DNA of 33,519 bases from a bacterium (GTDB lineage Bacteria > Electryoneota > JAOADG01), in NCBI GenBank assembly GCA_026417415.1, contig JAOADG010000022.1:1-33519 (forward strand). The letters run 5' to 3'. The notes beneath the pieces are model-generated. The model searched no databases. It was not told the DNA's origin and saw only the letters and a list, made by a program, of their open reading frames with translations. This document shows, piece after piece, positions 30,804-33,519 of the stretch (position 1 is its first letter; each line of letters starts with the position of its first letter). Position numbers and translations under genes: made by a program.

Positions 30804-31432
30804 ATAACAATAAACATCAAGAAAATGTAAGATTTCTAGATGTTGTCCATGATCTTGATTTACGCCAACTTTGGAATGTTTCCAATCTACTAAGTTTATC
30901 CAGAGTTGTTCTTATTTTCCCAGTATGTTTTTATTTAATCCGTGACGAATCAAATGACAAATATATTGCACTTATTTTAATGATCGTTGCTGCATCAACC
31001 GACTTTTTAGATGGTTATCTGGCAAGAAGGTTTAACCAAGTTACCAATCTTGGAAAAGTATTAGATCCATTAGCAGATAAAATTTGTCTTTTAGCAGTTT
31101 CCCTATGTCTTGCGCTACCTAATCGTGAAGTAAGAATTCCGTACTGGTTGTTGATAGTTGCTGGTGCAAGAGATTTAATCATCGTTGTGTTAGGATATTG
31201 GATTTATCGGGAAAAAAATATCATCATGGTTTCAAATATCTGGGGAAAATGGACAAGTACGATTTTAGCTATACTAACGATTCTCGTAACACTTCAAGTA
31301 AATCAATTGCCATGGTATTTAATCATTTTTGATGTAGAATATTTCATATGGATTGTTTTACTAATGTTAGTATTTTCTTCATTAAGTTATTTATTAAAAT
31401 TATTAGATGTAGTTTCTGATACAAATTCCTAA
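30794..31432 (+). CDS. pgsA: CDP-alcohol phosphatidyltransferase (PgsA-like)
   Basis: This 212-residue membrane protein carries the full CDP-alcohol transferase signature D-x2-D-G-x2-A-R-x8-G-x3-D-x3-D in FLDGYLARRFNQVTNLGKVLDPLADK. LWNVSNLLSLSRVVLIFP before it resembles the N-terminus of phosphatidylglycerophosphate synthase, the most likely activity, which uses CDP-diacylglycerol made by CdsA in the same array. A different alcohol acceptor cannot be excluded. It overlaps the UbiA gene by 10 bases. Confidence 0.85.
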   Translation: MDLDNNKHQENVRFLDVVHDLDLRQLWNVSNLLSLSRVVLIFPVCFYLIRDESNDKYIALILMIVAASTDFLDGYLARRFNQVTNLGKVLDPLADKICLLAVSLCLALPNREVRIPYWLLIVAGARDLIIVVLGYWIYREKNIIMVSNIWGKWTSTILAILTILVTLQVNQLPWYLIIFDVEYFIWIVLLMLVFSSLSYLLKLLDVVSDTNS

Positions 31433-31437
31433 AACTT

Positions 31438-32853
31438 ATGCCATTACCGATTCGTTTATATGATTCACTATCCCGCAAACTAACTTTGTTAGAACCTGTA
31501 GATACACAAAGAGAAAAGGTTACCATATATACCTGTGGCCCAACGGTTTACAATTATGCACATATTGGTAATTTACGATCTTATTTATGGGAAGATTTTT
31601 TAACAAGGACTTTGCGATTATTTGGATACGAAGTTATTCATGTAATGAACATAACAGATGTAGATGATAAAACCATTCGTGATGCAAAAGCTGCAAACTT
31701 ACCTTTAAAAGAATTTACAAATCGCTATACTGAAGCATTTTTTCAAGATATCTCTGCATTAAAAATACACCCTGCAAATCATTATCCTCGTGCTACAGAT
31801 TTTATTTCTCAAATGCAGACAATAATTACCTACTTGCTTCAAAATGGATATGCTTATGTGAGTGAAGAAGGTTCTGTGTATTTTAAGATTGATGCTTTTG
31901 CTGATTATGGAAAACTATCGGGTAGAAAAAATGTAACATCTCATAAACACCGAATTGCTACTGATGAGTATGATGATAAAGAAGGTTTACACGATTTTGC
32001 ATTATGGAAAACATGGAAAGAAGAAGACGGAGATGTTTATTGGGACTCACCCTGGGGCAAAGGGCGACCGGGTTGGCATATCGAGTGTTCTGCGATGGCA
32101 ATGCATTATTTAGGTGAGACCATTGATATTCATTGTGGTGGTGCAGACAATCTATTTCCTCATCATGAAAATGAAATTGCACAAAGCGAAGCATACACAG
32201 GAAAACAATTTGTTAAAATTTGGTTACATGGTGAGTGGCTATTGGTAGATGGAAAAAAAATGTCTAAATCATTGGGGAACTTTTTCACATTAAGAGATTT
32301 AATGGAAAGAGGAATTTCTCCAAGAACATTTCGATTTTTCGTTTTATCTACTCATTACCGATCGCCCATCAATTTCACGTTTGATGCAATCCAAGATATT
32401 GAAAATCGTTTAAAGAAAATGGATGAGTTTTGGTATAGTTTAGTAAAGAATTCGGATGATAAAGGTGATAACATTGAAGAAATTCTATTCTTTGAAAATA
32501 AGTTCATTCAAGCCCTTGCTGAAGATTTAAATACTTCCAAAGCATTGGCTATTCTTTCTGAATTTATAAAATTCGTAAATCAACTTAGAGCAAATGCAAA
32601 ACTGAGTCAGAAGCTCTTAAATGAAATTAAAAGAGTATGGTTAAAGTTTGATCAAGTTTATCAATCTTTAGTCCCGTGGGAAACTAGGCAGTTTCTCTCG
32701 GAGGTTGAAATTCTAAGTAAAATACAAGAGAGAGAATTAGCCAGAAAAAACAAAAATTTTGATATTGCGGATAAAATTCGCCAAGAATTGTATCAACAAG
32801 GTGTGATTTTAGAAGATACACCCAAAGGTACAATTTGGAGATGGCGCTCATAA
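31438..32853 (+). CDS. cysS: Cysteinyl-tRNA synthetase
   Basis: This 471-residue class I synthetase charges tRNA-Cys. Zinc ligands Cys33 (TCGPTVYNY), the cysteine in WHIECSAM and the HHENE motif are present. The ATP motifs are HIGN (42-45) and KMSKS (274-278). The C-terminal DALR-like helical domain ends normally. It starts five bases after the phosphatidyltransferase stop and is the last protein gene of the array before the tRNA cluster. Confidence 0.98.
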   Translation: MPLPIRLYDSLSRKLTLLEPVDTQREKVTIYTCGPTVYNYAHIGNLRSYLWEDFLTRTLRLFGYEVIHVMNITDVDDKTIRDAKAANLPLKEFTNRYTEAFFQDISALKIHPANHYPRATDFISQMQTIITYLLQNGYAYVSEEGSVYFKIDAFADYGKLSGRKNVTSHKHRIATDEYDDKEGLHDFALWKTWKEEDGDVYWDSPWGKGRPGWHIECSAMAMHYLGETIDIHCGGADNLFPHHENEIAQSEAYTGKQFVKIWLHGEWLLVDGKKMSKSLGNFFTLRDLMERGISPRTFRFFVLSTHYRSPINFTFDAIQDIENRLKKMDEFWYSLVKNSDDKGDNIEEILFFENKFIQALAEDLNTSKALAILSEFIKFVNQLRANAKLSQKLLNEIKRVWLKFDQVYQSLVPWETRQFLSEVEILSKIQERELARKNKNFDIADKIRQELYQQGVILEDTPKGTIWRWRS

Positions 32854-32875
32854 TCAAGATTCTCAAAATAGAAAC

Positions 32876-32902
32876 TTGACAAAGTCAGTTTCTGAATATA
32901 AC
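32876..32902 (+). promoter_or_regulatory. Possible promoter of the tRNA-tuf unit
   Basis: A consensus TTGACA (32876-32881) is followed after 15 bases by TATAAC (32897-32902), or after 17 by TAACTT. It lies about 45 bases before the first tRNA. The -10 region falls in one arm of the inverted repeat at 32892-32920. Confidence 0.45.
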
Positions 32903-32920
32903 TTCCATTGCTATATTCAG
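32892..32920 (+). repeat. Inverted repeat at the tRNA-tuf promoter
   Basis: CTGAATATA (32892-32900) and TATATTCAG (32912-32920) form a perfect nine-base inverted repeat with an 11-base spacer. No T tract follows, so it is not a standard terminator of cysS. It overlaps the likely -10 and start region and could be an operator or a leader hairpin. Confidence 0.55.
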
Positions 32921-32947
32921 ACACGATTACGGTCTGAAGTGTAAAAT

Positions 32948-33020
32948 GCTGACGTAGCTCAGTTGGTAGAGCTCCCGACTTGTAATCGGAAGGTCGTCGG
33001 TTCAAATCCGACCGTCAGCT
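32948..33020 (+). tRNA. tRNA-Thr (UGU)
   Basis: Full cloverleaf with acceptor GCTGACG/CGTCAGC, D arm with AGCTCAGTTGGTAGAGCT, anticodon TGT in loop CTTGTAA, T arm with GTTCAAATC, and U73. CCA is not encoded. It is the first gene of a cluster whose order matches the E. coli thrU-tyrU-glyT-thrT-tufB operon. Confidence 0.96.
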
Positions 33021-33029
33021 CGACGGTCG
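33009..33029 (+). other. Hairpin spanning the tRNA-Thr(UGU) 3' end
   Basis: CGACCGTC (33009-33016, T stem and acceptor 3' strand) can pair perfectly with GACGGTCG (33022-33029) in the trailer around AGCTC. This would compete with the normal acceptor stem, so it may affect 3' processing or be a chance copy of tRNA sequence. Confidence 0.4.
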
Positions 33030-33045
33030 TAAGAACCTTAATAAG

Positions 33046-33078
33046 ACCGATTGAGTAGCGTTCAGTCGGTTTTTATTT
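33046..33078 (+). terminator. Terminator-like hairpin between tRNA-Thr and tRNA-Tyr
   Basis: ACCGATTGAG (33046-33055) pairs with TTCAGTCGGT (33061-33070), with G-U pairs, around TAGCG. It is followed by TTTTATTT, a typical intrinsic terminator tail. It sits inside the tRNA-tuf unit, so it would either be leaky or separate the first tRNA from the rest. Confidence 0.6.
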
Positions 33079-33097
33079 ACTTTATTTATAGTCAAAA

Positions 33098-33181
33098 GGG
33101 GAGGTATCCAAGAGGTCAAAGGATGCTGACTGTAAATCAGACGTGCGCCGCACTTCGTAGGTTCGACTCCTACCCTCCCCA
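33098..33181 (+). tRNA. tRNA-Tyr (GUA)
   Basis: A class II tRNA of 84 bases: acceptor GGGGAGG/CCTCCCC, anticodon GTA in CTGTAAA, a long variable arm with stem GTGC/GCAC, T loop GTTCGACTC and A73. CCA is not encoded. It lies six bases before tRNA-Gly. Confidence 0.95.
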
Positions 33182-33186
33182 CATTA

Positions 33187-33259
33187 GCGGGAGTAGCTCA
33201 GTTGGTAGAGCTTCAGCCTTCCAAGTTGAATGTCGCCGGTTCGAGTCCGGTCTCCCGCT
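33187..33259 (+). tRNA. tRNA-Gly (UCC)
   Basis: Cloverleaf with acceptor GCGGGAG/CTCCCGC, anticodon TCC in loop CTTCCAA, T loop GTTCGAGTC and U73. CCA is not encoded. It lies six bases before the next tRNA-Thr. Confidence 0.96.
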
Positions 33260-33264
33260 CAATG

Positions 33265-33337
33265 GCTGACGTAGCTCAGTAGGTAGAGCACATCCTTGGT
33301 AAGGATGAGGTCACCGGTTCAATCCCGGTCGTCAGCT
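33265..33337 (+). tRNA. tRNA-Thr (GGU)
   Basis: Cloverleaf with acceptor GCTGACG/CGTCAGC identical to the UGU threonine tRNA, anticodon GGT in loop TTGGTAA on stem CATCC/GGATG, T loop GTTCAATCC and U73. It ends 41 bases before tuf, so the tRNA is probably cut from the tuf message. Confidence 0.96.
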
Positions 33338-33378
33338 CGTTTTAGTTAAAATTCTTTGGTGAAGAAAGGAAAATTTAA

Positions 33379-33519
33379 ATGTCCAAAGTGAAATTTGAGC
33401 GTACGAAACCGCATGTGAATATCGGTACGATAGGTCATGTGGATCACGGGAAGACGACCTTAACAGCGGCGATCACGTTAGTTTTATCTAAGCGTGGTTT
33501 AGCCCAATATCGTTCGTTT
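33379..33519 (+). CDS. tuf: Elongation factor Tu (5' part, cut by window end)
   Basis: The first 47 codons of EF-Tu: [20 protein letters not shown] followed by the P-loop [13 protein letters not shown] and the start of switch I. AAAGGA precedes the ATG by eight bases. Four of the six Thr codons are ACG, and Ala codons include GCG and GCC, a more G+C-rich usage than most genes here. The rest of the gene is outside the window. Confidence 0.97.

Follow-up and report, generated by a model that had tools for sequence, protein, structure and literature searches.

A terminator-like hairpin between the first two tRNA genes of a bacterial tRNA-tuf operon

Organization of the locus

The stretch of DNA analysed here (the window, 33,519 nucleotides) closes with a tRNA-tuf operon of the tufB type, in which tRNA-Thr(UGU), tRNA-Tyr, tRNA-Gly(UCC), tRNA-Thr(GGU) and tuf follow one another in a single orientation, and which is directly preceded by cysS, named from its own sequence and its matches (Table 1). 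The same four tRNA genes and tuf form thrU-tyrU-glyT-thrT-tufB of Escherichia coli and Salmonella in the same order; an earlier note made from this sequence had stated that order for E. coli tufB, the E. coli record agrees with it, and the Salmonella order is given in PMC6134099. In the E. coli record the five genes are separated by 8, 116, 6 and 114 nt, the first spacer thus being 8 nt long as against 76 nt in the window, and the terminator score described below reveals no hairpin with a T-run in its Tyr-Gly or Thr-tuf spacers. The site named in the title of van Delft et al. reportedly lies before tufB, not after the first tRNA. The tufB regulatory region, as named in PMC6134099, is the start of the tufB coding sequence and not a site after the first tRNA.

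Two genomes of the class entered the comparison in all, that of the window and one from a sister genus (G001). tRNA-Thr(UGU) was found once in the window's genome, and tRNA-Tyr(GUA), tRNA-Gly(UCC) and tRNA-Thr(GGU) each occur in one copy among the tRNA genes found in it (44) and in G001 (39); as the tRNA lists are incomplete (that of the window's genome has no tRNA-Asn), the single-copy state of these three is only likely. The same 141 bases of tuf close both the window (33379-33519) and contig C39 (G000:C39:14583-14723), as expected if two identical tuf copies had collapsed during assembly.

Table 1. Positions of the features discussed; f3 and f4 positions are given as locus, range and strand.
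Feature	Position	Strand	Basis and remarks
Predicted promoter of the operon, TTGACA-17-TAACTT	32876-32904	+	matrix score 17.6
tRNA-Thr(UGU)	32948-33021	+	ARAGORN; Rfam RF00005, 73 bits; CCA not encoded; anticodon TGT in DNA
Trailer hairpin	33009-33016 with 33022-33029	+	8 perfect bp, 5-nt loop, -13.1 kcal/mol
Predicted intrinsic-terminator hairpin	arms 33043-33055 / 33061-33073, loop 33056-33060	+	folding, scan, score
Terminator stretch able to pair with the tRNA 5' half	33046-33066	+	predicted minimum-energy fold; interaction P = 0.01
T-rich tail of the terminator	33070-33088	+	sequence; T-tract score 4.35
tRNA-Tyr(GUA)	33098-33182	+	ARAGORN and Rfam; beyond the terminator; found once
tRNA-Gly(UCC)	33187-33260	+	ARAGORN and Rfam; found once
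tRNA-Thr(GGU)	33265-33338	+	ARAGORN and Rfam; found once
tuf (EF-Tu), start	33379-33519	+	window ends inside the gene
f3 hairpin	L054:948-1026:-, L072:1040-1113:-, L065:859-929:-, L073:632-700:+, L059:645-718:+, L064:930-1002:-
f4 element	L050:233-330:+, L051:534-633:-, L061:471-570:+, L063:1185-1283:-, L069:1554-1653:-, L074:407-505:+

Promoter matches around the first tRNA gene

The region upstream of tRNA-Thr(UGU) holds one outstanding promoter match. The pattern TTGA(C/T)N, 16-18 nt, TA...T was sought upstream of 40 operons and is present in 34, the window itself among them; with the matrix built from these 34, the next best score in 31001-33519 is 5.7 as against 17.6 for the predicted promoter. 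Downstream of tRNA-Thr(UGU) the same sigma-70-type matrix finds no good promoter, the best score for a first hexamer in 33022-33350 being 0.9. A generic promoter scan returned 7 sites on both strands (6.6 expected), including a weaker one before the first tRNA (32918-32947) and none after it; the predicted promoter of Table 1 was not listed because its second hexamer misses the rule of that scan.

A terminator-like hairpin in the first spacer

Within the spacer between tRNA-Thr(UGU) and tRNA-Tyr, a stable hairpin (33043-33073) is directly followed by a U-rich tract, which is the anatomy of an intrinsic terminator. Its 13 pairs include G-U pairs and pairs with the T-run, and its tail reads TATTTACTTT; the hairpin with a T-rich tail that the earlier note had reported downstream of the tRNA is indeed present and terminator-like. 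Of 200 shuffles of the 57-nt stretch 33022-33078, 197 fold less well than the stretch itself. With a simple terminator score (hairpin energy plus a weighted T-tract, threshold 20), the spacer attains 24.3, and 0 of 40 spacer shuffles reach the threshold. In a joint list of 83 tRNA-downstream stretches from the two genomes, 52 of which are devoid of any terminator site, the stretch behind tRNA-Thr(UGU) ranks 19th for the window and 10th for G001, and the score in the window is comparable to those of other tRNA terminators in these genomes. A simple consensus scan over 2120 bases gives 1 terminator-like site where 1.6 are expected; the pattern alone is therefore not rare at this scale, and the case rests on position and conservation.

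The comparison with G001 bears on the latter. tRNA-Thr(UGU) is identical in the two genomes, and the spacer behind it, 76 nt in the window and 101 nt in G001, has diverged in its first part. Its best conserved part is the 3' arm together with the T-run, where GTTCnGTCGGTTTTT is common to both genomes, 23 nt (window) and 19 nt (G001) before tRNA-Tyr. The 5' arms pair with this shared 3' arm in both genomes, in a slightly shifted register, and G001 has a strong stem of its own; the G001 spacer reaches a terminator score of 27.3, a threshold of 20 also being attained by 30% of its shuffles.

The predicted leader between the promoter and tRNA-Thr(UGU) contains a 7-bp inverted repeat, TTCAGAC/GTCTGAA (32916-32938). 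As read from the sequence, the terminator 5' arm contains AGACCG, to which a CGGTCT overlapping this repeat could pair.

A leaky internal terminator as the probable role of the hairpin

On balance, we think it probable that the hairpin is an ordinary intrinsic terminator which, being leaky and internal to the operon, sets the ratio of tRNA-Thr(UGU) to the downstream genes. One outstanding promoter match lies upstream and the downstream tRNAs were found once, so the genes past the hairpin appear to depend on a transcript that crosses it; as no promoter was found behind the terminator and the tRNAs beyond it were found once, the stop should be leaky or regulated. A single strong sigma-70-type promoter ahead of tRNA-Thr(UGU) would drive the operon, and RNA polymerase would meet the intrinsic terminator after the first tRNA. 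Part of the polymerases would stop there to give a short tRNA-Thr(UGU) transcript, and the remaining ones would go on to transcribe tRNA-Tyr, tRNA-Gly, tRNA-Thr(GGU) and tuf. The tRNA would fold first and remain folded, and the terminator would act as a fixed polarity element that determines how much of the first tRNA is made relative to the other genes. What is observed are the sequence elements, the single outstanding promoter match, one find each of the tRNAs past the terminator, the retention of the terminator in the sister genus and the recurrence of terminator-like hairpins in this operon elsewhere in the phylum (see below); actual termination, its leakiness and its purpose are inferred.

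The arrangement resembles leaky internal terminators and attenuators of operons, in which a hairpin with a T-run likewise lies between seemingly cotranscribed genes with no promoter found behind it; here the predicted terminator is placed between two tRNA genes. In the literature searched, no terminator situated behind the leading tRNA gene of a tuf operon is announced. If the terminator works in this manner, it would provide the bacterium with a way to set unequal amounts of tRNAs from a single operon, and a very conserved tRNA-tuf operon would have gained inner RNA elements that differ between lineages.

The hairpin may instead be a processing or stability element, serving as an endonuclease boundary or an exonuclease block while the precursor is cut into tRNAs. 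We regard this as unlikely though by no means far-fetched, as the downstream tRNAs seem to be made from the same transcript and longer inner spacers in other families are structured with no clear terminator (e.g. in f4, see below). However, the T-run is best conserved along with the 3' arm, as expected of a terminator, and the Tyr-Gly and Gly-Thr junctions of the window (4 nt each) manage without a hairpin.

Predicted pairing of tRNA-Thr(UGU) with its trailer and with the terminator

The earlier note had also stated that the 3' end of tRNA-Thr(UGU) can pair with its own trailer (33009-33029), and the stem is found as described (Table 1). The gain from this pairing has P = 0.01 in the window against 200 dinucleotide shuffles of the spacer. 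When tRNAs of the window's genome are combined with one another's spacers, 1.8% of the non-cognate combinations equal the cognate trailer pairing and a perfect stem of at least 8 bp arises in 0.66% of 1806 swaps (∼0.3 expected among 43 tRNAs); the trailer hairpin is therefore improbable only to a modest degree (1-2%), and one 8-bp trailer stem among 43 tRNAs is not very surprising. The trailer of G001 begins with GCTGACG and can pair with CGTCAGC of the acceptor stem, in another register than in the window and more weakly (P = 0.245 against shuffled spacers). Across 36 operons of the phylum sample (spacers cut at 110 nt; L041, L045 and L053 left out for spacers of <20 nt, L076 for its other order and L075 as 100 bases with no tRNA), trailer pairing is not enriched, with P ≤ 0.05 in 3 where 1.8 are expected. 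These genomes thus give no evidence of a conserved pairing, and the trailer hairpin is most likely incidental. Strong trailer pairing of tRNA-Cys in both genomes was considered as a parallel and rejected, the pairing sequence looking like the start of the next tRNA.

Minimum-energy predictions for the window place native tRNA plus terminator at -45.8 kcal/mol and an alternative fold at -51.5 kcal/mol, i.e. better by 5.7 kcal/mol. The alternative combines the trailer hairpin with 19 pairs between the tRNA 5' half (32948-32967) and the terminator (33046-33066), and is predicted to open the tRNA and sequester the terminator, the two states being mutually exclusive in silico. In folds of growing prefixes, completion of the trailer suffices for the trailer hairpin to appear (0.94 at 82 nt), and the terminator is suppressed. 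In swaps, the interaction of tRNA-Thr(UGU) with its own spacer comes first of 43 spacers for the tRNA and first of 43 tRNAs for the spacer. The spacer-tRNA interaction reaches P ≤ 0.05 in the Thr-Tyr spacers of 8 of the 36 operons (1.8 expected). When the four tRNAs of an operon are compared on the Thr-Tyr spacer, tRNA-Thr(UGU) comes first in 21 of the 36.

Such folds would permit an attenuator governed by tRNA folding, in which a native tRNA frees the terminator and leads to a stop, whereas pairing of the trailer (33022-33029) to the tRNA 3' end and of the tRNA 5' half to the terminator leads to read-through, the balance being set by folding or by RNase P or RNase Z cleavage. A switch of this kind is possible in the window as modelled, where the switched state is the minimum-energy fold, but it finds no comparative support in G001 or in the trailer pairing of the phylum sample, and we consider it distinctly improbable. 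For G001, the predictions give -57.0 kcal/mol for native tRNA plus terminator and -57.2 kcal/mol for the best fold. Its acceptor stem is predicted to open at 88-95 nt, to be largely native or in a mixed state in prefixes of 105-165 nt (0.47-0.93) and to open again at full length (0.16), where the trailer hairpin reaches 0.80; both full-length folds retain the terminator hairpin, so that nothing is switched. Pairing of the terminator with the tRNA 5' half is not seen in G001 (interaction P = 0.665), which in these predictions shares the tendency of the trailer to open the tRNA, without sequestering of the terminator. Another tRNA of the window's genome, tRNA-Gln(UUG), shows a stronger interaction with the stretch behind it than tRNA-Thr(UGU) does (-6.3 versus -5.6 kcal/mol). 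A native tRNA, moreover, is transcribed first and would need to be unfolded, and the energies ignore tRNA tertiary structure, modification, bound proteins and kinetics; an easily misfolding tRNA could equally produce the first rank in 21 of 36 operons. As to the attenuator proposed in the earlier note, a terminator-like hairpin inside the operon is supported and is kept in the sister genus, and exclusive folds are predicted in the window, whereas control of read-through by the folding or processing of the tRNA is not supported.

A broader form of the switch, which we hold to be very unlikely, would make tRNA-Thr(UGU) a sensor whose 5' half is the antiterminator arm and whose 3' trailer is the switch, its folding or maturation state setting read-through to three tRNAs and EF-Tu; in other families, different RNA elements of the first or second spacer, e.g. 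the f4 element, would have taken the place of the device. Were the switch true, the making of the translation apparatus would be governed in cis by a tRNA that senses its own quality, and we know of no such case. T-box riboswitches would likewise tie a tRNA to termination; they sense tRNA in trans through a conserved leader. Membership of the hairpin region in the T-box or another known RNA family was rejected, as only tRNA matches reach the Rfam gathering threshold in the window and 18 loci; at E ≤ 3, the matches in five loci including G001 are either to tRNA itself or low in score, the latter overlying tRNAs or extending into them.

A second promoter or chance as improbable alternatives

If the terminator were full, it would end a one-tRNA unit, and the rest of the operon would need a promoter of its own that the scans missed. 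The terminator score is good and TATAGT at 33087-33092 resembles a -10 box, but the best downstream score in these sigma-70-type scans (0.9) stands against 17.6 upstream, tRNA-Tyr lies only 23 nt past the T-run, inspection by eye shows no -35 box for TATAGT, and TATAGT is absent from that place in G001; we judge such a unit highly improbable. Least likely of all is that both hairpins are chance structures devoid of function: terminator-like consensus sites are common and 8-bp trailer stems are expected at the rate given above, but the position, the family conservation and the T-run speak against it.

Structured RNA in the spacers of other tRNA-tuf operons

The order Thr(UGU)-Tyr-Gly-Thr(GGU) is found in 32 of 32 loci read among 39 genomes of the phylum, these loci having been picked from clustered matches with G005, G010, G020, G029, G030, G034 and G038 left out of the 39. 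In the inner spacers of the 32 operons (13 spacers of <20 or >330 nt not counted), terminator-like sites occur in 15 of 83, against 4.3 expected from shuffles: in 5 of 32 Thr-Tyr spacers (1.8 expected), 8 of 23 Tyr-Gly spacers (1.7) and 2 of 28 Gly-Thr spacers (0.7). The sites of other phylum members sit in differing spacers and are not demonstrably homologous to that of the window.

Two families illustrate that the first two spacers of the tRNA-tuf operon repeatedly hold structured RNA. In f3, the Tyr-Gly spacer of six aligned genomes carries a long hairpin whose lower stem covaries and whose tail is T-rich, both partners having changed in 5 of 11 predicted pairs; its model (R2) matches only its six training sequences among 36 loci, with none in the window region. 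In f4, the Thr(UGU)-Tyr spacer of 6 of the 7 genomes contains a structured element of ∼84 nt with the pattern GGTGAC..GCAGGGAG..CAGCANAGG..ACCTGGAT..GTCACC, in which GCAGGGAG, CAGCA and ACCTGGAT are invariant. Its cells pair to 91.9% with a covariation score of 0.277 (0 of 500 shuffles for both), and 6 of 27 pairs have changes on both sides (reached by 27 of 500 shuffles); further pair types are no more numerous than in shuffles. The f4 model, built from the six genomes, recovers these six once each, nothing in the other 33 genomes of the phylum and, with stricter filters, no further genome among 290. The element is without an Rfam match at the gathering threshold in the six loci and, at E ≤ 3 over the element, in two. 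This RNA of ∼84 nt may merit more attention than the tRNA and terminator hairpins of the window. Homology of the window hairpin to the f3 and f4 elements was rejected, models R1 and R2 having no match in the window region.

Records of one FCB bacterium of uncertain placement and of two Marinimicrobia have the same cysS-tRNA order, with first spacers of 36, 67 and 66 nt in which an evident hairpin with a T-run is absent by eye and by fold, which counts against the leaky-terminator reading. In f6 (L044, L047, L055), the last 15 nt before tRNA-Tyr contain stretches such as CTCCTTTT or CTCTTTTT, and the L057 spacer contains GGCTCTTTAACAATTG; these are boxA-like and might load antitermination factors. 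Finally, the 313-nt Thr-Tyr spacer of L058 is bounded on one side by repeated GGATTTT-type units and on the other by the complement of these, giving a very long predicted stem of -132 kcal/mol that encloses inner hairpins and resembles a mobile or assembly-related insertion.
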